Assembly: GCA_022563135.1 (NCBI GenBank)
Contig: JADFNZ010000046.1
Coordinates: forward strand, 1 to 11,597
Reading direction: 5' to 3'
DNA length: 11,597 nucleotides
DNA from: Chloroflexota bacterium
Lineage (GTDB): Bacteria > Chloroflexota > Dehalococcoidia > DSTF01 > RBG-16-68-14
Positions 1 through 10,901 of the stretch are shown piece after piece (position 1 is the first letter of the stretch; every line of letters begins with the position of its first letter). Under the pieces are notes generated by a model, which saw nothing but the letters and a program-made list of their open reading frames with translations, did not search any database and was not told where the DNA came from. Made by a program: the position numbers and the translations under genes.

Positions 1-164
1 TGCACCTGGTCCTGGAGCTGGCTCGTCCAATTGAAGCCGGCCGCGCCTTCGATGTGGCCCTCATCGTAGGCCGTGGTGTCGACGTCGACCTCGATCAGCT
101 TCACGTTGCTCAGGTTGTCGGCCACCCACTGCGTCGTGACCAGAACTTCGTCTCGTGCGGTCAT
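1..164 (-). CDS. Thiosulfate sulfurtransferase (rhodanese), N-terminal part, cut by the window edge
   Basis: Starts at ATG 164-162 and runs off the left edge with no stop; about 54 residues are visible. The reading MTARDEVLVTTQWVADNL, then an EVDVDTTAYDEGHIEGA segment and an LQDQV segment, matches the start of the first rhodanese domain of two-domain thiosulfate sulfurtransferases such as mycobacterial CysA2/CysA3 and SseA. The catalytic cysteine would lie in the second domain, outside the window. A strong ribosome site, AAGGAGGA at 177-170, sits 5 bases before the ATG. It is the last gene of the sulfur cluster on this strand, 168 bases after cysM, with its own promoter. Family knowledge: these enzymes move sulfane sulfur from thiosulfate to a thiol acceptor. 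Inference: it may supply sulfur to the E1 at 1567-2694, which has no rhodanese domain of its own. Family call is confident; the partner is a guess. Confidence 0.85.
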   Translation of the reverse strand, partial: MTARDEVLVTTQWVADNLSNVKLIEVDVDTTAYDEGHIEGAAGFNWTSQLQDQV

Positions 165-332: not shown

Positions 333-1268
333 CTACCACCAGACCTTGCCCTCGATGTCTTCCGTCAGCTCGTCGTAGTCTTTGCTCCAGAGCGAGGTGG
401 AGAGGTATTTCCAGCCGCCGTCGGCGAGCAGCAGCACGACGTTGCCGCTATCGAGCCGCTCCGCCACGCGCTGCGCCGTGCGCAGGACGGCGCCGGCCGA
501 GATGCCCGCGAAGATCCCCTCGGCCTCCGTCAGCTCCTTCGTTGCGGCGAACGAGGTGGGCGAATCGACGACGATCTTGCCGTCGAGGATCGATTCGTCC
601 AGCACCGGCGGGATGAAGCCCTCGTCCAAGCTGCGCAGGCCCTGTACGAGATCGCCGGGGTGGGGCACGCAGGCGACGACCTTCAGGTCCGGCCGCTGCT
701 CTTTCAGGTAGCGGCCGGCGCCCGTGAGCGTGCCGCCCGTGCCCAGGCCCGCGACGAAGACGTCTATGTCCGGCAGGTCGCGCAGGATCTCGGGGCCGGT
801 GGTCTCGTAGTGGGCGCGGGGGTTGGCCTCGTTGCCGTACTGGTAGAGCAGCAGGTAGTTCGGGTTGCCTGCGGCCATCTCCTGCGCGACGACGATCGAG
901 CCGTTCGTGCCCTTGATCCCCTCCGAGTAGGTGATCTCCGCCCCAAAGGCCTTCAGGAGCTGCGCGCGCTCCTCGCTCACGCTCTCCGGCATGACGACCT
1001 GCAGCCGGTAGCCCTTGATGCGGCAGATCATCGCCAGCGAGATGCCCGTGTTGCCGCTGGTGGGTTCGAGGATGACGCGGTCCGGGGTGATCTCGCCGGC
1101 CTTCTCCGCGTCCTCGATCATGTACTTGGCGATGCGGTCCTTGACCGAGCCGGTGGGGTTCTGCCCTTCGAGCTTGGCGAAGAAGCGGACGCCGGGCTTG
1201 GGGCTGAGCCGTCGCAGCTCCACCAGCGGCGTATTGCCGATCGCCTCGATCAGGTTCTGGTAGAGCAC
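333..1268 (-). CDS. cysM: CysM-type cysteine synthase, probably O-phosphoserine / CysO-thiocarboxylate dependent
   Basis: 311 residues in PLP fold-type II. NPTGSVKDR holds the Schiff-base lysine (Lys43). TSGNTG (70-75) is the substrate loop and GTGGT (176-180) binds the PLP phosphate. By eye it is closer to mycobacterial CysM than to CysK: LYQYGN (141-146), the LRSLDEGF stretch, EGIFAGIS, GWKYLST, and a C-terminus ending EGKVWW where the mycobacterial protein ends EGQLWA. Arg212 sits where mycobacterial Arg220 reads the phosphate of O-phosphoserine. In that family CysM joins O-phosphoserine-derived aminoacrylate to sulfur carried on the CysO C-terminus; the CysO-like gene lies directly upstream, 11 bases away. 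The start is GTG (1268-1266), with no clear ribosome site, so translation probably couples to cysO. Use of O-phosphoserine is inferred, not shown. Confidence 0.9.
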   Translation of the reverse strand: MLYQNLIEAIGNTPLVELRRLSPKPGVRFFAKLEGQNPTGSVKDRIAKYMIEDAEKAGEITPDRVILEPTSGNTGISLAMICRIKGYRLQVVMPESVSEERAQLLKAFGAEITYSEGIKGTNGSIVVAQEMAAGNPNYLLLYQYGNEANPRAHYETTGPEILRDLPDIDVFVAGLGTGGTLTGAGRYLKEQRPDLKVVACVPHPGDLVQGLRSLDEGFIPPVLDESILDGKIVVDSPTSFAATKELTEAEGIFAGISAGAVLRTAQRVAERLDSGNVVLLLADGGWKYLSTSLWSKDYDELTEDIEGKVWW

Positions 1269-1279
1269 GGCCGTTGGCG

Positions 1280-1558
1280 TTAGGATGCGCCGCCGGCCAG
1301 CGCGGGCAGGATGGAGATCACGTCGCCGTCGCTCACGGGCGTCTCGAGCGACTTGAGGTAGCGGATGTCCTCATCGTTCAGGTAGATGTTGACGAAGCGG
1401 TGGAGCTGCCCGTCGTCGCCGCTGATCTGCGCCCGAAAGCCGGGGAAGCGCTCGTTCAGCTTCTCCAGCAGCTCGCCCACCGTACGGCCATCCTCTTCGA
1501 CCGCTTTCGCTCCGACGAGCTTCTGGAGCGTGGATGCCATGCGTACTTCTACTGCCAT
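1280..1558 (-). CDS. cysO: CysO-like ubiquitin-fold sulfur carrier protein with Gly-Gly-Ala-Ser tail
   Basis: 92 residues with a MoaD/ThiS-type beta-grasp fold. The segment LHRFVNIYLNDEDIR (52-66) and the end ILPALAGG (83-90) closely resemble mycobacterial CysO. In the family the C-terminal glycine is adenylated by an E1-like enzyme, turned into a thiocarboxylate, and donates sulfur to CysM. Here Gly89-Gly90 is followed by Ala91-Ser92, so the conjugation end is masked and would need a peptidase. The start at ATG 1558 is chosen because AGGAG (1568-1564) precedes it; the open frame continues upstream to 1669, but that part lies inside the E1 gene. The ribosome site overlaps the stop codon of the upstream E1 gene (8-base gap), which suggests translational coupling. 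Molybdopterin or thiamine use is less likely given cysM next door. Confidence 0.88.
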   Translation of the reverse strand: MAVEVRMASTLQKLVGAKAVEEDGRTVGELLEKLNERFPGFRAQISGDDGQLHRFVNIYLNDEDIRYLKSLETPVSDGDVISILPALAGGAS

Positions 1559-1566
1559 TGAGTCTC

Positions 1567-2694
1567 CTATGCCTCCGCGCTCACGGCGGCCTGCACCGGG
1601 GCAGCGCCGCAGAACGCATCGTAGTCGATCAGCTCCGTGATCGACGGGTTGTCGCCGCAGACGACGCATTCCGGGTCGCGGCGGATCTTGAACTGGCGCA
1701 TCTCCACGTTGAGCGCGTCGATGATCAGGAGGCGGCCGTTGAGCGATTCGCCGATGCCCAGGATCAGCTTCAGCGTCTCGGTCGCCTGCATCGAGCCGAT
1801 GATGCCGCAGAGGGCGCCGAGCACACCGGCCTCCGCGCAGCTCGGCACCATGCCGGGGGGAGGCGGCGCGGGGAAGAGGCAGCGGTAGCAGCCCTTGCCG
1901 GGCAGATAGACCGTCGCCTGGCCTTCGAAGAGGAGGATGCTGCCGTCCACGAGCGGCTTCTTGAGGAAGACGCAGGTATCGTTCACGAGATAGCGCGCCG
2001 CGAAGTTGTCCGCGCCGTTGACGACGATGTCGTACTGGCCGACGATCTCCAGCGCGTTGTCCGAGGTGAGCGGCGCTTCGTGCGTCACCACGTTCACGTC
2101 CGGGTTGTAGCGGTTGAGCGTCTCCTTCGCGGAGACGACCTTCGGCCGGCCGACGTCCTCGGTCTGGTGGAGGATCTGGCGCTGCAGGTTCGAGAGGTCG
2201 ACGGTGTCGAAGTCGACGAGGCCGATCGTGCCGACGCCGGCGAGCGCAAGATAGACGGCCACCGGCGAGCCGAGTCCGCCCGCGCCGACGATGAGCACCT
2301 TCGATGCCATGATCTTGCGCTGTCCGGTGCTGCCCACCTGCGGCATGATGATGTGGCGCGAGTAGCGCGTCACCTGGTCCGGCGTGAGCGCCTTGGCCGG
2401 TGACGCGCCGTCGCCGTCCGCGCCGCCCGCGATGGCCGGGATGATCGCGATCTGGTCGCCCGTGGCGAGCGGCGTGCTGTCGCCCTCCAGGCTGTTGATC
2501 TCCTGATTGTTCACGTAGATGTTGATGTGGTTGGGGATCTCGTGCTGGCTGCTGTAGATCAGGTCGTGCACGCCGGGGAACCGCTCGTCGAGGTTGTCCA
2601 GCACCTCGGCGACAGTGGCGCCTTCCACCTCCACGTACTGGCGATTGCCAGTCATCCTACGCAACGCGTTGGGTATGTACACAGTGACGGTCAT
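1567..2694 (-). CDS. moeB: Fusion of MoaD/ThiS-like sulfur carrier and MoeB/ThiF-like E1 adenylyltransferase
   Basis: 375 residues. Residues 1-91 are a complete ubiquitin-fold carrier (NHINIYVNNQEIN at 55-67, ending IIPAIAGG). A linker of about 16 residues follows, then a full E1-like domain (about 108-375). E1 marks: nucleotide loop GAGGLG (137-142), DFD (161-163), NLQRQ (169-173), NGADNF (226-231), a cysteine in PSCAEAG (Cys286) at the usual active-site place, and zinc pairs Cys269-x2-Cys272 and Cys343-x2-Cys346. It ends soon after LIDYDAFCG, where MoeB-rhodanese fusions go on into a rhodanese domain. The likely job is ATP-driven adenylation of the carrier C-terminus before sulfur loading, most obviously for CysO downstream. 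ATG 2694 is preferred over ATG 2721 because GGAGGAA (2707-2701) sits 6 bases before it. The buried Gly90-Gly91 of the fused carrier is unusual. Confidence 0.9.
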   Translation of the reverse strand: MTVTVYIPNALRRMTGNRQYVEVEGATVAEVLDNLDERFPGVHDLIYSSQHEIPNHINIYVNNQEINSLEGDSTPLATGDQIAIIPAIAGGADGDGASPAKALTPDQVTRYSRHIIMPQVGSTGQRKIMASKVLIVGAGGLGSPVAVYLALAGVGTIGLVDFDTVDLSNLQRQILHQTEDVGRPKVVSAKETLNRYNPDVNVVTHEAPLTSDNALEIVGQYDIVVNGADNFAARYLVNDTCVFLKKPLVDGSILLFEGQATVYLPGKGCYRCLFPAPPPPGMVPSCAEAGVLGALCGIIGSMQATETLKLILGIGESLNGRLLIIDALNVEMRQFKIRRDPECVVCGDNPSITELIDYDAFCGAAPVQAAVSAEA

Positions 2695-2739
2695 GGTCGC
2701 TTCCTCCGCGGGGCCTCTCATCTCCTTAACGTTCTCTCC

Positions 2740-3705
2740 TTACAGGTCGACACTCAGGTAACGCTCGCCGGTGTCCGGCAGTATCGTGACGATGCGCTTG
2801 CCCCGGCCCAGCTTCTCCGCCACCTGGAGCGACGCGAAGACGTTGCAGCCGCCCGATATTCCCACCAGCAGCCCTTCTTCCTTCGTCAGGCGGGCCGTCA
2901 TCGCGTAGGCGTCCTCATCCGCAACCGCGATGAGCTGGTCGTAGATCTCGCGGTTGAGCACGCTGGGTATGAAGCTTGCGCCGATACCTTGGATGCCGGT
3001 GAGGCCGGCCTTCCCACCCCCGAGCACCGGCGATCGCTCCGGCTCCACGGCGACGATGAGGATCTGCGGGTTGTGCTGCTTCAGCACCTCGCCTACGCCG
3101 GTGATCGTGCCGCCCGTGCCTACCGCGGCGACGAAGGCGTCGAGCTCGCCGCCGGTCGCCTTCAGCACCTCCTGGGCCGTCGTGCGCCGGTGGATCTCCG
3201 GATTGGCGGGGTTGTTGAACTGCTGTGGCATGAAGTAGCCGTGCTTCTCCTTCAGCTCCTGCGCCTGGTAGACGGCGCCGGACATGCCCTCGATGGCGGG
3301 CGTAAGAACAAGCTCCGAGCCGAAGCGGGTGAGGAGCTTTCGCCGCTCCAGGCTCATGTCGTCGGGCATAGTCAGGATTAGGCGGTAGCCCTTCACCGCC
3401 GCGACCATCGCCAGGCCGATGCCGGTGTTGCCGCTCGTCGGCTCAACGATCGTGTCGCCCGGCTTCAGCTCCCCGCGCGCCTCGGCGTCCTCGATCATGG
3501 CGAGCGCGATGCGGTCCTTGACGCTGCCGGCCGGGTTGTGCGACTCCAGCTTGGCGAGCACCTCCGCCGAGCCGTCCGGCACGACGCGGTGGAGCCGCAC
3601 CAGCGGCGTGTTGCCGACGAGATCGAGCGCGCTGTCGGCGATCTCCTCGCCCGCGCTGACGGAAGCCCGCAGGGCGCGCAGCTCAGATGTGGTAGCGTCC
3701 ACCAC
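2740..3705 (-). CDS. cysK: Cysteine synthase (O-acetylserine sulfhydrylase type)
   Basis: About 321 residues from GTG 3705. IADSALDLVGNTPLVRL opens the catalytic fold. NPAGSVKDR holds the PLP lysine (Lys63), TSGNTG is at 90-95, and GTGGT, GISGG and the CysK-style end LPDTGERYLSVDL follow. The family makes cysteine from O-acetylserine and sulfide. The open frame runs to 3819, but that would bury the end of the Rrf2 gene. GTG 3705, 10 bases after AAGGAG (3721-3716), gives a normal length and a 23-base overlap with the Rrf2 gene, implying coupling. A second GTG follows at once (3702). The gap to the E1 gene is 45 bases. Compared with the CysM gene it has QQFNNPANPEIH where CysM has LYQYGN, so the two probably use different substrates. 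Cystathionine beta-synthase activity cannot be excluded. The exact start is less certain than the family. Confidence 0.88.
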   Translation of the reverse strand: MVDATTSELRALRASVSAGEEIADSALDLVGNTPLVRLHRVVPDGSAEVLAKLESHNPAGSVKDRIALAMIEDAEARGELKPGDTIVEPTSGNTGIGLAMVAAVKGYRLILTMPDDMSLERRKLLTRFGSELVLTPAIEGMSGAVYQAQELKEKHGYFMPQQFNNPANPEIHRRTTAQEVLKATGGELDAFVAAVGTGGTITGVGEVLKQHNPQILIVAVEPERSPVLGGGKAGLTGIQGIGASFIPSVLNREIYDQLIAVADEDAYAMTARLTKEEGLLVGISGGCNVFASLQVAEKLGRGKRIVTILPDTGERYLSVDL

Positions 3706-4123
3706 TGTGTTGGTACTCCTTGTCCTTCGCTGCCAGATCGGCGATAGAGACGCTCTCGAGGATCTCGTGCGTGGCGTCGCGAATGCGGACCCAGACGTCG
3801 CGCTGGGCACAGCGGCCATCCTTCGAGCAGACTTCTGGGTCGTCCACGCAGGCGCTCGGCGCGATCGTTCCTTCCAGCGCCAGCATCGCCTCGCTCAGCT
3901 TCACTTCGCGCGGATCGCGGATGAGTGCGTGGCCGCCCTGCGGGCCGCGCACGCTGCGGATGATGCCGGCGCGCCGCAAGGTCGTGAGGAGCTGATCCAG
4001 GTAGGTCTCCGGGATCTTCTGGCGCGTCGCGATCTCCGCGCTTTGCACCGCCCCCTCGCCGTAGCGATGGGCCAGCTCAATGAGCGCGCGCACGCCGTAT
4101 TCGCCCTTAGTCGATACCTTCAT
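3683..4123 (-). CDS. Rrf2-family transcription regulator with three cysteines
   Basis: 146 residues. The N-terminus MKVSTKGEYGVRALIELA, the helix-turn-helix region around 26-60 (IPETYLDQLL; RSVRGPQGGHAL) and the KLSEAMLALEG stretch are typical of the Rrf2 family (IscR, NsrR, CymR). Cys92, Cys99 and Cys105 are spaced C-x6-C-x5-C, close to the C-x5-C-x5-C that holds an Fe-S cluster in IscR. CymR of Bacillus, the cysteine-metabolism member, has no such set. The gene heads the cysteine operon and overlaps cysK by 23 bases, so it is very likely a self-regulating controller of sulfur assimilation. Whether it senses Fe-S status, redox or a cysteine precursor cannot be read from the sequence. No strong ribosome site is seen before ATG 4123; this start matches the family's usual N-terminus. 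Confidence 0.9.
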   Translation of the reverse strand: MKVSTKGEYGVRALIELAHRYGEGAVQSAEIATRQKIPETYLDQLLTTLRRAGIIRSVRGPQGGHALIRDPREVKLSEAMLALEGTIAPSACVDDPEVCSKDGRCAQRDVWVRIRDATHEILESVSIADLAAKDKEYQHSGGRYHI

Positions 4124-4135
4124 GGTTGCTCGAAT

Positions 4136-4154
4136 GAATGTTTATCGAATTCCT
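4136..4154 (-). promoter_or_regulatory. Candidate operator in front of the Rrf2 gene
   Basis: Minus-strand AGGAATTCGATAAACATTC (4154-4136) lies 12 bases before the Rrf2 start codon, just downstream of the putative -10 box. Its left part, AGGAAT-TCGATA, matches the minus-strand element AGGAATCTCGATATTCCT in front of sir (9888-9871) apart from one missing C. It contains GAAT-N9-ATTC arms. This is a plausible autoregulatory Rrf2 site; it rests on two sequences only. Confidence 0.4.
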
Positions 4155-4164
4155 CAACAATCCT

Positions 4165-4173
4165 AGTGTACCA
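4165..4173 (-). promoter_or_regulatory. Extended -10 promoter candidate for the Rrf2-cysK-E1-cysO-cysM operon
   Basis: Minus-strand TGGTACACT (4173-4165) fits the extended -10 form TGnTAnnnT. The hexamer 17 bases upstream (GGCGAA) is a poor -35 box, as is common for extended -10 promoters. Transcription would start near 4158, 35 bases before the Rrf2 ATG. The 83-base gap after the permease has no convincing terminator, so read-through from the upstream operon is also possible. Confidence 0.4.
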
Positions 4174-4206
4174 CGGGCCAATCGCCCTTCGCCACGCTCA
4201 CGAATG

Positions 4207-5352
4207 CTACAGCACGAGCAGCACCCCCGGCACAATGAAGATCGCCGCGAGAAACGAGGCGAACGCTCGCCTGCTCGCCGTGAGCCGGTGCGCCAGGCTG
4301 AGGATCAATCGCTGGAACGGCTGATAGACGAACAGCAGCACCAGCGCGGAGACCGCGGCAGTGAGCACAAGCTGCGTCACAACGATCGTGACCGCTCGTG
4401 GCGTATCGAGCAAGACGGCCGCGAAGAGCGTATCGATGAACGTGGTGATGTTCGCGCCCATCACGTACGGCACGATGCCGTGACGCCGGACGACGCCTTT
4501 CAGGGAGAGCGGCACGAGTAGCGTGAGCGAGATGGAGACGGAGAGCGTCACCAGGGTGACGAGGCCGCCTATCGCGAACATGGTCAGGGGACGGTGAAAG
4601 AAGCCGAGCACGCGCTCCAGCCGCGGGCTGGGCGGATCCAGGTTGGGCAGCACCCGGTCGAAGAGCTGGAAGGAGGCGAGCAAGATGACGCCGCCCAGCG
4701 CGAACACGGCCAGGGCCGGCAGCACGTCGTCGAGCCGCTCCGCCGAGCCGCCGAAGACGTCGTCTACGAAGGTGGCGATGCCGGGCGGCGCGCCCGCGCT
4801 GACGCCGTCGAACCACCCCTGATCGAGCGCCAGCAGGCCGATGAGCAGCGAGGGGGTGTAGATGGTGAACGTGGTGAGCAGCGCGACGACGCCGATGTAG
4901 AGCCCGTCCGGGTTTCGCTGGTGACGGATGTAGTAGATGAAGCCGACGAAGAGCACCATGAAGGAGGCTCCGAAGCGAGAGCCGTTGATCATGGCGAAGC
5001 TCTCCGTGACGGAGATCGCGCCGCCGCTGAAGAGGCCCAGCGAGGTCGCCGCAACCGGCGAGCCGCTCAGCATCACGTAGGCGCCGAGCCAGCCGAAGCC
5101 GAAGAGGTTGAGCGGCCCGTCGGCCGAGAGTCGGTCCAGCAGCGTCGTCGCGCCGCCGGCGCCTGTCGTGAGCAGCTTGAGGGCGAGCACGAAGAGGCCG
5201 AGCGCGAGGATGACGTAGGGGATGCGCACGGCGCCCGCTCGGATCAGCGAGCGGGCAGCGCCTGCCGCGCGCGCCACGGCCGCCTCGCTCCGCTGCGCGC
5301 TCTCCTCTGCCGCGGGCGGAAGGACGCGTTCGGAGGTCCTAGGCGCCGCCAC
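4207..5352 (-). CDS. Na+/Pi-symporter-family membrane permease, probable sulfate transporter
   Basis: 381 residues. A cytoplasmic-looking tail of about 40 residues is followed by some eight or nine hydrophobic segments (about 44-65, 81-108, 127-143, 151-176, 208-230, 254-280, 299-312, 315-341, 364-381). Two related re-entrant-like motifs, [11 protein letters not shown] (97-107) and [11 protein letters not shown] (299-309), are separated by half the protein. They recall the inverted-repeat motifs of the Na+/phosphate cotransporter (NptA/SLC34-like) family, where GANIGTT-type loops line the substrate path. The start is GTG 5352, overlapping the sat stop by 14 bases and preceded by a GGGAGGG ribosome site, so it is coupled to sat. 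No ABC or SulP sulfate transporter is in the window, so context suggests this protein imports sulfate or exports a sulfur anion. Substrate is inferred only from position; phosphate remains possible. Confidence 0.7.
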
Positions 5353-6529
5353 CGCTCCCTCCCGCTCCGGCCGGTTGCCGGGTCGCCTCGATCAGGACTT
5401 CGGCGACCTCCGGCCTCGTGAACTCGGCCGGCGGAATCTCGCCGGCGGCGAGCATCTCGCGCACGCGCGTGCCGGAGAGCGCCACGCGCTGCTCGGCGTC
5501 GTGCGGGCAGGACTTGCTGCTCGCCATGGAGCCGCAGGCGCGACAGAAGAAGGTGTGCTCGAAGAAGAGGGGCGTCACGCCGAGCTCGTCCGGCGAGAAC
5601 TGACCGAAGATCTGCTGGGCGTCGTAGGTGCCGTAGTAGCTGCCGACGCCGGCGTGATCGCGCCCGACGATGAAGTGCGAACAGCCGTAGTTCTTCCGCA
5701 CCAGGGCGTGGAAGATCGCCTCGCGCGGGCCGGCGTAGCGCATCGCCGCCGGCAGCACGGAGAGGAGCACGCGGTCGCTCGGGTAGTAGCCCGCGAGCAG
5801 CACCTCGTAGCAACGCATGCGCACGTCGGCGGGGATATCGCCCGGCTTCGTCTCGCCGACGAGTGGGTGCAACAGCAAGCCATCGACGATCTCGAGCGCG
5901 CACTTCTGGATGTACTCGTGGGCGCGGTGGACCGGGTTGCGCGTCTGAAAGCCGACGACCGTGCGCCAGCCGCGCTCCGCGAAGAGCGCGCGGGTCTGGG
6001 CGGGCGTCCGCTGATGGTCGGGGAACTGCGCGGGCGGCTGGCGAAAGCGCGTCACCTTGCCGCCGAGTAGCACGTCGCCCTGCCCGTACAGGGCGGCGAC
6101 GCCGGGGTGGGCGTCCTCCTTGGTGCGGTAGACCTGCTCGGCCTCGACCTGCTTGTCGTAGTCGAACCGCTCCTCAAGATCGAGCACCGCGATCGGCTCG
6201 CCGTCCTCGTCGACCAGCGCGACACGCTCTCCGTCGCTGAGCGACGCTGCCTCGTCGCGCGCGGCCGGCAGCGTCACGGGGAGCGACCAGACGTGGCCGT
6301 CCGGCAGGTGCATCTCATCGACGACCGCGCGATACTGGCGCTGGGTCATGAATCCTTCGAGCGGGCTGAAGCCGCCGATTGCGAGGAGCTCCAGGTCGGA
6401 GAGGGTGCGGCTGGAGAGGCGGATCGCCGGTAGGCTACGGGCCTCCTCTTGCAGCGCGGAGGCTTTCGCGCCGGTGACATCCCGGTCGATGAGCCTGCCG
6501 CCGTGTGGCGCGATGAGCTGGTCCTCCAT
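5339..6529 (-). CDS. sat: Sulfate adenylyltransferase (ATP sulfurylase)
   Basis: 396 residues, normal for the single-chain Sat family (not CysD/CysN). It makes adenosine 5'-phosphosulfate and pyrophosphate from ATP and sulfate. Visible marks: [10 protein letters not shown] near the N-terminus, [10 protein letters not shown] (195-204) with the nucleotide-binding HxxH, GRDHAGVG (289-296), a zinc set Cys329-x2-Cys332-x8-Cys341-x-His343, and SGTRVREML (352-360). The C-terminus ends with a Gly-rich tail and has no kinase domain. ATG 6529 is chosen over TTG 6559 because GGAAGGAAG lies about 8 bases before it and the family N-terminus fits. It follows cysC after a 114-base gap with no clear gene, terminator or promoter, and overlaps the permease gene by 14 bases. 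Confidence 0.95.
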
Positions 6530-6643
6530 ACGTTCTCTTCCTTCCCCTTCCGTCCTCAACGAAACGAGCGCCTGAACGCTCCCTCCAAACTGAGGCCGAC
6601 CTCGATGGCCGGCCCCAGAGGAATCGTGTGGTCTGCTCGCGCG

Positions 6644-7201
6644 CTACCCTGCCACCGCCCGTTCGGCAAGCGGAGCGAGGTAGTGCAACTCCTCCAGCTT
6701 GTTCAATACCTTCGCCAGGCTCTCCTCCACCGTCTCCTTGTCCGACTCGAACACCACTTCCGCGTTGAGCGGCTCCTCGTAGGGGTCGGAGACGCCGGTG
6801 AAGTTCTTGATCTCGCCGCGGCTCGCCTTCGCGTAGAGGCCCTTCACGTCGCGCTCCTCGAGCACATCGAGCGGACACTGGGCGAAGACCTCGACGAAGT
6901 CGCCGATCAGCTCCCGCAGCTCGTCGCGAATCGCGCGGTACGGGGAGATAGCGGAGGCGATGGCGATGACGCCGTTGCGGGAGAGGAGGTGACAGACGAA
7001 GCCGATGCGCCGGATGTTGGTGTCGCGGTCCTCTTTGCTGAAGCCGAGCCCCTTGCTCAGGTTGGTGCGTACGACATCGCCGTCCAGCATCTCAACCTTC
7101 AGGCCGCGATCGCGCAGCTCCTGATAGAGCTTCTCAGCGATGGTCGTCTTGCCCGCGCCTGAGAGTCCGGTGAACCAGATGGTGAAGCCTCGCTCGCCCA
7201 T
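6644..7201 (-). CDS. cysC: Adenylylsulfate (APS) kinase
   Basis: 185 residues, normal length. It phosphorylates APS to PAPS. The Walker A loop GLSGAGKT is at 12-19, LDGDVVR at 39-45, and SAISPYR (83-89) contains the serine (Ser86) found at the active site of the family. [24 protein letters not shown] is a near-invariant family stretch. The start at ATG 7201 follows AGGAG (7211-7207) by 5 bases, and that ribosome site overlaps the TAG of cysH (8-base gap). The frame remains open to 7543 but that part is inside cysH and unlike the family. Because the neighbouring reductase looks able to use APS directly, PAPS made here may serve sulfation reactions as well as assimilation. Confidence 0.95.
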
Positions 7202-7209
7202 GTACGCTC

Positions 7210-7959
7210 CTATCTTGCGACCTCTTCGCCGCGGGCCAGCTTGATCGACCCGTCCTGGACGTTGATGCCGCATTCGATCTTGTCCATGCCCGGCCAGCGG
7301 CCGGCGCGGGGGTCTTCGCCCGGCTTGACCGCCACGGTGCAGTGCGTGCAACCGATGCTTGGGTAGCTCTTGTCGTGAAGCGGATTGTAGGGCAGGTCGT
7401 GCTTGGCGATGTAGGCCCAGACGTCCGCCTCCGTCCAACGCGCCAGCGGGATGACCTTCACGAGGCCATACTTTTCGTCCCACGCGACTACGGGCGTCTC
7501 GCGTCGCGTCGCGCCCTGGTCGCGGCGAATGCCTGCGATCCACGCGTGCTTGCCGGCGAGGGCGCGCTGGTTGGGCTCGACCTTGCGCAACTGGCAGCAG
7601 AGATCCGGGTCGCGCCGCCAGAGCTCATCGCCGTGCTGCTCCGCCTGCTGGTCGACCGTGAGCGTCGACTTGTAGGCGACCGGCTGGATACCGTACCGCT
7701 CGATCACCCGGTCGCGCGTTGCGTAGGTCTCGGGGAAGAGGAGGTCGGTATCGAGGTAGAAGACCTCGACCTGCGGCTCGATCTTACTGATCATGTCGAC
7801 GAGCACGAGGCCGGAAGGTCCGCCGAAGCTGCAGGCTAGGGTGAGGTGCGGATGAAACTCATCGACGGCCCATTGCAGGATCTGTTGCGGGGTCTGCTCT
7901 TCCAGCTCCCGGCTGATCTCTGCCAGCTTCTCGCTGCTATAGGTCTGAACGTCGGCCAC
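7210..7959 (-). CDS. cysH: Assimilatory APS/PAPS reductase of the [4Fe-4S] type
   Basis: 249 residues of the PAPS reductase/ATP-pyrophosphatase fold. The loop SFGGPSG (44-50), [12 protein letters not shown] (68-79) and [10 protein letters not shown] (143-152) are family marks. Cys121-Cys122 and Cys204-x2-Cys207 form the CC...CxxC set that binds a [4Fe-4S] cluster in APS-reducing members; PAPS-only enzymes such as that of E. coli lack it. Cys230 in ECGIN is the catalytic cysteine that takes sulfite from the substrate, with electrons from thioredoxin. The product feeds sir upstream in the same operon. GTG 7959 is preceded by AGGAG with 5 bases between. Cluster-type enzymes may use APS, PAPS or both, so substrate choice beside cysC is open. 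Confidence 0.93.
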
Positions 7960-7997
7960 AGTATCTCCTAGCCGCTCCGATATCGCCGGACATGGTT

Positions 7998-8018
7998 AGC
8001 CGGGCGTCACGCCCGGCT
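7998..8018. repeat. Perfect 9-bp hairpin between sir and cysH
   Basis: AGCCGGGCG (7998-8006), loop TCA, CGCCCGGCT (8010-8018). It lies in the 106-base gap between the sir stop and the cysH start. No T-run follows on either strand, so it is not a normal intrinsic terminator; it could slow polymerase, protect the sir mRNA end, or set the ratio of sir to downstream genes. The rest of the gap shows nothing else I can name except the cysH ribosome site. Confidence 0.6.
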
Positions 8019-8065
8019 GACCTCGCCCCTCCCTGCGCCCGATGGCAGATGCGGAAGCGCGAAAA

Positions 8066-9847
8066 CTATACGGAACACTCTCCTTCGCCCATGTCGTCCA
8101 GGCTGAAGAGCTTGACGCCTCCCCAGTCTACGAACGCCATGGGGTCCTTCTCGAACGTGGGCATCTCCCGGTAGTCGGCGAGCACTTCCTGGATCTCCGG
8201 CTTGCCTGCGCGAATCGCCCAGTCGCCGAAGGGCTCACCTTCGTTGCGGTGCTCGCGGTAGTAGTCGATGAGCGTAACGACCGCCTCCGGGATGCGCTTA
8301 GCGGCGATCTTCATCACGTGCGTACCAATGCGCGCGTCCAGCCCATCGCCCTTGCCGGCGACGAGCATAGAGAAGGCGGGCACCATGCGGTCGCTCGAAC
8401 GAACGGCGTTGCCGTAGAAGCCGATGTCGGCGACGTGGTGATGGCCGCAGGAGTTCGGGCAGCCGCTGATCTTGATGCGGATCTGCTCCACCAGCGGGTC
8501 GTCCCTTAGGTGGCCGTTCTTGCCGCGCAGGGCGTCGCGGATCGCCGTGCCCAGCCCCTTCGACGACGTGACGCCCAGGCTGCAGGTGTCGGCGCCGGGG
8601 CAGGTCATCACATCTGTGAGCGTGAGGACGCCGTCCTCGGCCAGCCCGGCCTCGGCAAGCTCCGCGTGAAGGCTAGGCAGGTCCTCCTCGTGCACCCAGC
8701 GCAGCACCATGTTCTGGTTCACGGCGGTGCGGATGTGCCCGCCCGAGTACTTGCGGGAGAGGCGCGCCAGATCGCGGAACTGCTGCGCCGTGATGTCACC
8801 GATGGGCAGCAGGACGTAGACCAAGTAGAAGCCGTCCTGCTTCTGCGGGAACGCGTTGGTGCGCTTCCATGCCTCGAAGCCGGTCTTCGGCCCGTGGCCG
8901 TTCTGGCCGAGCGATGCGGCCGATGGGTGCGTCACGTTTTCCTCTTCGAGGAATGACCAGTCCGGATCGCGATACTGGCCGCTGTCGGCCGGCGGCAGCG
9001 TGGCGGCCTCTTCGTGGATCAGCCGCCGCACCTCGTCGATGCCGAGCCGCTTGATGACGAACTTGATGCGCGCCTTGTTGCGGTTCTTGCGCTCGCCATG
9101 GCGGTCGAAGATGCGGATCGTCGCTTCGGCGATGCGGAGAAACTCCTCCTCCGGCACGAACTCGTCCAGCACCTGAGCGATGAACGGTGCGGCGCCCAGC
9201 CCGCCGCCGATGGTGACGCGGAAGCCGCGCTTGCCGTCCTTGATCACGGCGGTCGCGCCCAGGTCGTGTATCGGCACCAGGCCGTGGTCGTGCACGCAGG
9301 CGGAGAAGGCGATCTTGAACTTGCGGGGCAGCTTCTGGCAGACGGGGTGGCGCAGGAAGAAGCGCGCCGTCGCCTCCGCGTAGGGCGTGATGTCGAACAC
9401 CGTGTCGTCGCAGAGGCCGGAGACGGGGTCTGCGGTGACGTTGCGCACGGTGTTGCCGCACGCCTCGCGCGTGGTGAGGCCGACCTGCTCCAGCATGCGC
9501 ATGATCGTTGGCGTGTCCTCCAGCGCGATGAAGTGGTACTGGATCGCCTGGCGCGTTGTGACGTGGCCGAGCTTGCGCGGGGCGTACTTCTCCGCGATCT
9601 CAGCGAGCACGTCCACCTGATCGGCGTTGAGCGTCCCGTGGGGTACCTTGACGCGCACCATCTGGGCATCGTCCTGGCGCTGGCCGTAGATGCCGTGCTG
9701 GAGGCGGAACGGGCGGAAGTCGTCGCCCAGCCCACCGCCCGCCTGAAACTCCTTCGCCTGCTCCTCGAAGTTCGCGATCTCCGCGATCACGAGCGGCGAG
9801 AGGCCGTTGTTCAGCTCCTGCGTCTCGCGAGTAAGCTCCTTGACCAT
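8066..9847 (-). CDS. sir: Siroheme / [4Fe-4S] sulfite reductase, ferredoxin-type
   Basis: 593 residues with the two-fold ferredoxin-like plus siroheme architecture of plant-type sulfite/nitrite reductases. Cluster and siroheme ligands are Cys416-x5-Cys422 (TCPGADTC) and Cys463-x3-Cys467 (GCPNSC). Substrate-binding basic residues match the family: Arg99 (TTRQ), Arg135 (VRN), Lys176 and Lys178 (RKFK). Tyr54 (GIYGQRQ) and Cys130 (EACG) sit where Tyr69 and Cys161 are cross-linked in mycobacterial NirA, which acts on sulfite; this and the setting beside cysH argue for sulfite to sulfide rather than nitrite reduction. The gene leads the operon behind a consensus promoter. ATG 9847 has AAAGGA about 7 bases upstream. 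A nitrite reductase remains a minor alternative. Confidence 0.92.
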   Translation of the reverse strand: MVKELTRETQELNNGLSPLVIAEIANFEEQAKEFQAGGGLGDDFRPFRLQHGIYGQRQDDAQMVRVKVPHGTLNADQVDVLAEIAEKYAPRKLGHVTTRQAIQYHFIALEDTPTIMRMLEQVGLTTREACGNTVRNVTADPVSGLCDDTVFDITPYAEATARFFLRHPVCQKLPRKFKIAFSACVHDHGLVPIHDLGATAVIKDGKRGFRVTIGGGLGAAPFIAQVLDEFVPEEEFLRIAEATIRIFDRHGERKNRNKARIKFVIKRLGIDEVRRLIHEEAATLPPADSGQYRDPDWSFLEEENVTHPSAASLGQNGHGPKTGFEAWKRTNAFPQKQDGFYLVYVLLPIGDITAQQFRDLARLSRKYSGGHIRTAVNQNMVLRWVHEEDLPSLHAELAEAGLAEDGVLTLTDVMTCPGADTCSLGVTSSKGLGTAIRDALRGKNGHLRDDPLVEQIRIKISGCPNSCGHHHVADIGFYGNAVRSSDRMVPAFSMLVAGKGDGLDARIGTHVMKIAAKRIPEAVVTLIDYYREHRNEGEPFGDWAIRAGKPEIQEVLADYREMPTFEKDPMAFVDWGGVKLFSLDDMGEGECSV

Positions 9848-10004: not shown

Positions 10005-10901
10005 GTGACGAAGCGTGCGCTCCTCATCCTCAACCCCGCGGCCCGCCGCGCCCCGCCGGCCGATCGCCTGCGCGCGGCTATCGATGCGGTCGATGGCTGG
10101 CAGGGGTCGCTGAGGCTGACGGAAGGGCCTCGCCACGCGACGGAGCTCGCACGCGAGGCCGCGGTTGGCGGCTTCGACGCCGTCGTCGCCTGCGGCGGCG
10201 ACGGCACGGTGAACGAGGTGGCCAACGGCCTCGCCGGTTCGGAGGCGGCGCTCGCCGTCGTCCGCGGTGGGACGGCGAACGTCTGGGCGAAGGAGATGCG
10301 CCTCCCGCGCAAGCCGGAGGAGGCCGTACGGCTGGTCGCGGACGGCGAAACGCGGACCGTCGACCTCGGCCGCGCGGGCGACCGCTACTTCCTGCTTATG
10401 GCGGGCGTCGGCTTCGACGCTGAGATCGTGCAGGCGGTGGGCCGCTCGAAGCGGAGGCTGGGTGCGACCGCGTATCTGCTGCACGGCCTCAGGATCGGTC
10501 TTCGCTATCGGGCCACGAAGGCCGAGCTTACGGCGAACGGCGAGCCGCTTGCGAATCAGCTCTACTGGCTGCTCTTCGCGAACACACGCAGCTACGCCGG
10601 CCTGCTCAACATCACCGACCGGGCGCGATTGGACGACGGGCGGCTCGATCTCTGTCTGCTGCCGAAAGGTGGGCTGTTGCGGCTCGGCTGGCTGCTGCCG
10701 TGGGTGCTCCTGCGCCGCCACCACAGTCGCGCCGGCGTCATCTACCGGCAGCTCGAATCGCTCGACGTGCGCACGCCCGGGCTGCCGGTGCAGGTAGACG
10801 GCGAGTACCTGGGCGAGACTCCGCTTCGCTTCGGCGTCGCGCCGGCCGCGCTCCGAATCGTCGTGCCGCGCGGGCTGCGCAGCGAGCTGTTTCGGCGGTA
10901 G
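10005..10901 (+). CDS. Diacylglycerol-kinase-family lipid kinase (YegS/BmrU-like)
   Basis: 298 residues. ILNPAARR opens the domain. GGDGTVNEVANGL (64-76) is the nucleotide-binding loop of the DAGK catalytic family, and VRGGTANVWAKEM (86-98) corresponds to the conserved GTxN segment. FDAE, a DGRLDLCLLP stretch and VQVDGEYLGETP near the end match the C-terminal beta-domain. No membrane helix or signal peptide is obvious. Such proteins phosphorylate diacylglycerol, phosphatidylglycerol or long-chain bases; the substrate is unknown here. The start is GTG 10005 with no clear ribosome site; the ATG at 9997 is out of frame. It is transcribed away from sir, sharing a 157-base intergenic region, and shows no functional tie to the sulfur genes. 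Confidence 0.88.
   Translation: MTKRALLILNPAARRAPPADRLRAAIDAVDGWQGSLRLTEGPRHATELAREAAVGGFDAVVACGGDGTVNEVANGLAGSEAALAVVRGGTANVWAKEMRLPRKPEEAVRLVADGETRTVDLGRAGDRYFLLMAGVGFDAEIVQAVGRSKRRLGATAYLLHGLRIGLRYRATKAELTANGEPLANQLYWLLFANTRSYAGLLNITDRARLDDGRLDLCLLPKGGLLRLGWLLPWVLLRRHHSRAGVIYRQLESLDVRTPGLPVQVDGEYLGETPLRFGVAPAALRIVVPRGLRSELFRR

Follow-up and report, generated by a model that had tools for sequence, protein, structure and literature searches.

The sulfate-assimilation operon described here is encoded on the minus strand of an 11,597-nucleotide stretch of contig JADFNZ010000046.1 from a Chloroflexota bacterium (the whole stretch being referred to as the window), and it probably ends in a cysteine route of the CysO/CysM type, in which a JAMM protease would free the sulfur carriers and an E1 enzyme would activate them in trans. 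The last part of the operon comprises three consecutive minus-strand genes, a carrier-E1 fusion (2694-1567), a free carrier (1558-1280) and a CysM-type synthase (1268-333), separated by gaps of 8 and 11 bases, respectively. A preliminary description of this DNA had singled out the same trio, and both coordinates and Pfam domains agree with it. The features concerned are the following:

1567 to 2694, minus strand: carrier-E1 fusion of 375 amino acids, with PF02597 at residues 5-91 and PF00899 at residues 111-344; a GGAGG-like site lies upstream of the start at 2694
2422 to 2427, minus strand: Gly90-Gly91 of the fused carrier, invariant across the aligned fusions, with the predicted JAMM cut site right after it
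1600 to 2394, minus strand: E1 adenylation domain (MoeB/MoeZ-type), PF00899, with Cys286 and two CxxC pairs invariant
1280 to 1558, minus strand: free CysO-like sulfur carrier of 92 amino acids, ending Gly-Gly-Ala-Ser; PF02597, with PDB matches 4n6e_B and 3dwg_C
333 to 1268, minus strand: CysM-type synthase of 311 amino acids; PF00291, best PDB match 3dwg/3dki (318.8 bits)

The locus is real and well conserved. Forty relatives were drawn from the best E1 matches, so that the fusion was selected for and not all of them are independent (L155 and L156, for example, are 94% identical). An Rrf2 regulator and CysK are present in all 40, and the order Rrf2, CysK, carrier-E1 fusion, carrier, CysM occurs in 39. 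Since it recurs in 39/40 relatives, this gene order is not due to chance. In the exception, L162, the free carrier and CysM were not found and a JAMM gene directly follows the fusion. A rhodanese gene follows the block in 12/40 relatives, and sulfate-reduction genes are found on the same strand in 8/40. Within one class, 92 of the 245 genomes sampled have the fusion, which occurs in other phyla as well, and in a search of plasmids the best five of 539 matches were only E1-domain matches, below 61%.

As encoded, neither carrier of the window could be adenylated, because the Gly-Gly is covered in both: Gly90-Gly91 of the fused carrier continues into a linker and then the E1 domain, and the encoded C-terminus of the free carrier is Gly-Gly-Ala-Ser rather than Gly-Gly. 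It had been overlooked in the preliminary description that the diglycine is C-terminal in neither carrier, and the self-contained route suggested there does not hold. The covered diglycine is nonetheless strictly kept. Ala-Gly-Gly occurs in 51/51 fusions among the best 80 loci listed, and in 47/47 fusions of a second set, made up of 48 relatives (a first eight and the forty above) plus the window, which has six loci in common with the first. Gly90-Gly91 is likewise invariant in 68/68 aligned fusions, a set overlapping both, while the linker that follows varies between fusions. Among the separate carriers of the 48 relatives and the window, 56/57 have Ala-Gly-Gly. Split versions have also been detected: in L011, G273, G110, G096 and G169 the gene order is the same, and the counterpart of the fused carrier has its own gene and ends with 2-12 residues after Gly-Gly, although L011 and G273 share 95% DNA identity, so that these cases represent four lineages at most. 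An AlphaFold2 model of the fusion, built on the 68-sequence alignment, had a mean predicted local distance difference test score (pLDDT) of 87.2 and a predicted template modelling score of 0.71, with residues 88-99 (Gly-Gly and linker) below a pLDDT of 50 between two confident domains. Because the Gly-Gly is kept, the linker is variable and of low pLDDT, and split versions exist, we read the fused carrier as one that would work once freed.

Among the open reading frames of the window, which ends 332 bases after CysM, there was no JAMM match. The earlier proposal that the E1 replaces the protease Mec as a neighbour reflects this window edge, given that 21/40 relatives have a JAMM gene of the Mec type within 5 kb downstream on the same strand. 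Without regard to side or strand, 22/40 have one within about 10 kb. In the first eight relatives it was located after CysM (L002, L050), after a rhodanese gene (L003, L011, L043), after the fusion (L004), beside CysM on the opposite strand (L001) or on another contig (L005), and of the five best full-length E1 matches, L131, L132 and L133 have it downstream on the same strand and L134 has it on the opposite one. In six JAMM sequences read by eye, H-S-H and S-x-x-D, which we take to be the JAMM motif, are kept. Co-occurrence was assessed in the 245 genomes, all from the class of G001, with E1 counted at E <= 1e-70 and JAMM at E <= 1e-8. E1 was detected in 149, of which 141 also had JAMM and 8 did not; of the 151 genomes with JAMM, 10 had no E1, and 86 genomes had neither. 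This corresponds to JAMM in 141/149 genomes with E1 as opposed to 10/96 without it (Fisher p 1.5e-44, a value that ignores kinship and genome incompleteness). When fused status was judged by match start, JAMM was present in 87/92 genomes with the fusion.

Several observations weigh against the part proposed for JAMM. JAMM is absent from 5/92 fused genomes and was not in the fetched stretch in 18/40 relatives, being over the cut-off elsewhere in 16 of those 18 genomes; L130 has none in its stretch, and its genome, G249, the closest relative, yielded a sub-threshold match only. Of the separate carriers, 14/57 end exactly at Gly-Gly, so that trimming is not always needed. JAMM also occurs in 54/57 genomes with an E1 not scored as fused, a group that includes G129 and G154 (no match listed) and G056 and G142 (match starting at a contig edge), and since this proportion resembles the 87/92 of fused genomes, JAMM tracks E1 and not the fusion. 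Probable MoaD-MoaE fusions in 8/12 fused genomes could need JAMM too, and the co-occurrence partly reflects genome type, because MoaE is itself associated with E1 (141/149 vs 52/96). These figures are in line with an alternative in which the fused carrier is never cut and serves as a structural or regulatory domain of E1, sulfur being carried by the free carrier alone: the fusion is retained in 92/149 E1-positive genomes, JAMM is as common without it as with it, and its cleavage is a prediction only. For a MoaD-MoaE fusion, MoaX, the available text of one report states that a cut after Gly-Gly is needed for it to work (PMC4326299). A covered diglycine that has no catalytic use would hardly be expected to stay invariant next to a varying, predicted disordered linker, and the fusion is split in five relatives, which leaves a permanently attached carrier rather improbable in our judgement.

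The E1 domain lacks a rhodanese domain (PF00581) in a Pfam scan of the fusion. Residues G137, G139, G140, C286, C269/C272 and C343/C346, presumably the nucleotide-binding glycines, the catalytic cysteine and two CxxC pairs, are invariant in the 68 aligned fusions. Elsewhere the E1 tail exceeds 100 residues, the length of a rhodanese, in 42 of the 51 fusions among the best 80 loci listed, two having been confirmed by Pfam. In a tree of E1 sequences, fused and unfused forms are interleaved, with 12 label changes for the unfused state, 8 of them forced by starred branches. The names given to the fusion by naming sources are MoeB, ThiF or adenylyltransferase/sulfurtransferase.

In a PF00899 search (E <= 1e-10) of 12 fused genomes, 9 had a single ThiF-family protein and the other 3 had an additional, weaker one. 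MoaE is present in 11 of the 12, each of which has another ThiS/MoaD domain that directly adjoins MoaE or shares its frame. In eight (G001, G026, G124, G152, G174, G195, G228 and G249) the MoaD and MoaE domains apparently form one frame; the carrier in such frames would be another whose Gly-Gly needs uncovering. Molybdopterin synthesis in these genomes thus seems to have its own carrier but mostly no other E1, and as the only ThiF-family protein found in 9/12 genomes, the E1 is probably not dedicated to the cysteine route and serves the molybdopterin carrier as well. Activation of several carriers in trans is probable by analogy with mycobacterial MoeZR, which activates both MoaD and CysO according to the accessible part of the source (PMC3227635). 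A shared E1 would support activation of the free carrier and weaken the idea of a dedicated route. It could also be argued that the cell uses the fused carrier as its molybdopterin (MoaD) carrier, with only the free carrier feeding CysM and the operon merely holding the shared E1. MoaE does occur in 141/149 E1-positive genomes, the free carrier outscores the fused one against CysO (64.9 vs 51.8 bits) and adjoins CysM, and this kind of fusion appears in print as MoaD-MoeB in the relevant passages of PMC11237513. Nonetheless, this assignment is unlikely, since a ThiS/MoaD domain accompanies MoaE in 11/11 cases, which indicates that molybdopterin synthesis has a carrier of its own, and G004 has the fusion and JAMM while MoaE was not found. 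Furthermore, among the 51 fusions of the best 80 loci listed, JAMM lies within 3 kb in 41, a synthase in 37 and both in 34, and in 31 of these 34 no carrier other than the fused one was found in the stretch.

In NCBIfam, the CysM-type protein is over the cysKM subfamily cut-off only, with the cysK and cysM cut-offs missed, while the neighbouring CysK passed its equivalog cut-off. The best structural match of the synthase, 3dwg/3dki, is a CysM known as an O-phosphoserine sulfhydrylase. The C-terminus carries WW in 47/47 CysM sequences. Arg212 of CysM aligns with a residue that we take to be the phosphate-binding Arg220 of the mycobacterial enzyme, and this column, counted over copies with matches longer than 250 residues, is R in 47/47 CysM and Q in 48/48 CysK. 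The synthase is thus probably O-phosphoserine-dependent. The thiocarboxylate route to cysteine that had been put forward earlier is consequently favoured on sequence, both by the O-phosphoserine CysM match and by an arginine found in 47/47 CysM as against 0/48 CysK, whereas its self-contained character is lost with the covered Gly-Gly.

CysE was detected at E <= 1e-30 in 38/40 fused relatives (31 over the cut-off), for which reason an O-acetylserine route probably runs in parallel in the fused relatives that bear it. In a search of 22 genomes, 4 were over the CysE cut-off; in the 14 genomes G028-G041 nothing better than 7.8e-13 was found, and neither G003 nor G011, which do have CysK, gave a strong CysE match. 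These 14 genomes (loci L020-L054) are Chloroflexota with an unfused E1. In ten of them the unfused E1 adjoins CysM, each with R at the Arg212 column, and cysteine in E1-CysM genomes without a strong CysE match may depend on O-phosphoserine. Among 30 loci fetched, L227 (G040) is 49% CysK-like, and L239, L240, L251, L252 and L254, from weak-CysE genomes, are closer to CysM than to CysK. The presence of CysE in 38/40 relatives and of an adjacent CysK in 40/40 would also fit an ordinary O-acetylserine pathway, with O-acetylserine and sulfide as the substrates of both synthases and with the carriers and E1 employed in other thiolations. Taking into account the CysM-type Arg212 and C-terminal tail, the ten genomes with E1 beside CysM and no strong CysE match, and the carrier and CysM that follow the fusion in 39/40 relatives, we regard this as very unlikely. 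Of 39 synthase frames at other loci (L006-L079, among the best 80 listed), 36 have K at the same column, 2 have Q and 1 has R; judging from sequence, those with lysine are a distinct subfamily.

Upstream of the trio and on the same strand are CysK, an Rrf2 regulator, a permease, Sat, CysC, CysH and a sulfite/nitrite reductase (Sir). The membership of CysK and Rrf2 in the conserved block, as well as the rhodanese gene that begins at 164 and runs past the window edge, had escaped the preliminary description. These features are:

1 to 164, minus strand: N-terminal 54 amino acids of a sulfurtransferase (rhodanese), with an AGGAGG site before the start; the window edge cuts the gene after 164 bases
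2740 to 3720, minus strand: CysK, O-acetylserine type (start approximate); TIGR01139 at 439.5 bits against a cut-off of 350.95, scanned on the frame 2740-3819; PF00291; Gln at the Arg212 column
3683 to 4123, minus strand: Rrf2-family regulator, CymR/IscR-like; PF02082 and TIGR00738, both equivalog cut-offs missed
4207 to 5352, minus strand: permease with a weak Na+/phosphate-cotransporter match (PF02690, 30.8 bits, cut-off 29.1), candidate sulfate importer
5339 to 6559, minus strand: ATP sulfurylase Sat; PF01747, TIGR00339
6644 to 7162, minus strand: adenosine phosphosulfate (APS) kinase CysC (start approximate); PF01583, scanned on 6644-7183
7210 to 7959, minus strand: phosphoadenosine phosphosulfate (PAPS)/APS reductase CysH; PF01507
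8066 to 9847, minus strand: sulfite/nitrite reductase haemoprotein; PF01077 and PF03460, no equivalog cut-off passed

The rhodanese fragment, whose active site falls outside the window, reads in frame and shares 63-69% identity with the gene that follows CysM in L003, L011 and L043, a Pfam scan of the L043 copy having given PF00581. Three cysteines lie close together in the Rrf2 regulator, which may mark it as a cluster-binding or redox sensor similar to IscR. The permease, for which an NCBIfam scan gave no match, stands between Sat and Rrf2, and adjoins Sat in nine relatives (L001, L130-L134, L141, L146 and L159). An additional free carrier occurs upstream of Rrf2 in L003, L011, L043, L140, L143, L144, L150 and L151. 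On the plus strand, the open reading frame 10005-10901 has a GGDGT motif and looks, as we take it, like a lipid kinase of the YegS/diacylglycerol-kinase type.

In the proposed scheme, whose catalytic steps are inferred throughout, Sat, CysC, CysH and Sir would reduce sulfate to sulfide, as their family assignments suggest. A JAMM protease encoded outside the window would cut after the Gly-Gly of the fusion and trim the free carrier, and the released E1, usually the sole one found in the genome, would adenylate the carriers in trans. Since the E1 has no rhodanese domain, sulfur would come from sulfide or from the separate downstream rhodanese. By analogy with mycobacteria, CysM would join O-phosphoserine to the carrier thiocarboxylate and JAMM would then release cysteine, with CysK and CysE providing a parallel O-acetylserine route. 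A further idea, which we hold to be doubtful, is that the fusion works as a proteolytic switch, in which the carrier, as long as it is attached, keeps the main E1 idle until JAMM cuts after the Gly-Gly and releases both in a fixed 1:1 ratio.

Comparable systems are known. The HcyS-HcyF-HcyD system of Wolinella likewise involves a rhodanese-less E1, an extra carrier residue removed by JAMM and sulfide from sulfate reduction, but its product is homocysteine and not cysteine. The mycobacterial CysO-CysM-Mec-MoeZ pathway is similar in that a CysO-like carrier adjoins a CysM matching 3dwg/3dki, JAMM is present in relatives and, in the portion of PMC3227635 available, the E1 is shared with other carriers; mycobacterial CysM uses O-phosphoserine and CysO, as stated in an excerpt of PMC11361707. 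In contrast to that pathway, the E1 is here encoded in the operon, has a fused carrier and lacks the C-terminal rhodanese domain of MoeZR, residues are encoded after the carrier Gly-Gly, and the genes are linked to sulfate reduction and CysK. Both parent operon types, 4c and 4e, are described in the available sections of Iyer et al. 2006 (PMC1779556). Type 4c, which includes Chloroflexus, comprises a carrier, an E1-rhodanese, a JAB protein and a cysteine synthase, while the E1 of the window has no rhodanese and no JAMM match was obtained among the window's open reading frames. Type 4e combines a carrier, a rhodanese-less E1, a JAB protein and sulfate-reduction genes, resembling the carrier and rhodanese-less E1 of the window with Sat, CysC, CysH and Sir upstream on the same strand, but it has O-acetylhomoserine sulfhydrylase and SirA instead of CysM, neither of which was among the ten proteins scanned with Pfam (333-9847). 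As far as those sections go, the operon of the window merges 4c and 4e and adds the carrier-E1 fusion and a second free carrier.

Fusions of a carrier to an E1 have also been reported. The relevant passages of a 2024 mSystems article (PMC11237513) place MoaD-MoeB and MoaD-MoeBR fusions in archaea, under molybdopterin synthesis, and call the bacterial ones limited to Rokubacteria and NC10, and an extract of Makarova and Koonin 2010 (PMC2948915) mentions Ubl-E1 fusions in Thaumarchaeota. The fusions found here share the joining of carrier and E1, but they occur in many Chloroflexota, bear a rhodanese in other phyla, and stand beside a cysteine synthase and often a JAMM gene; the present counts extend the bacterial range published in those passages. 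MoaX-type fusions similarly have a carrier with an internal Gly-Gly, their partner being, in the text available (PMC4326299), molybdopterin synthase and not an activating enzyme, and in Deinococcus a JAMM protease cuts a MoaD-MoaE fusion, judging by a title cited in PMC11237513. No published description of the present arrangement was found in the literature searched, which misses most subscription journals.

Taken together, the neighbours of the fusion point to cysteine synthesis and to a maturation step dependent on a protease. Were the fusion indeed a switch, JAMM would set both the start and the turnover of protein-bound sulfur, as it would later free cysteine from the carrier. The ten genomes where E1 adjoins CysM and no strong CysE match was obtained may constitute natural cases in which cysteine relies on O-phosphoserine and protein-bound sulfur.

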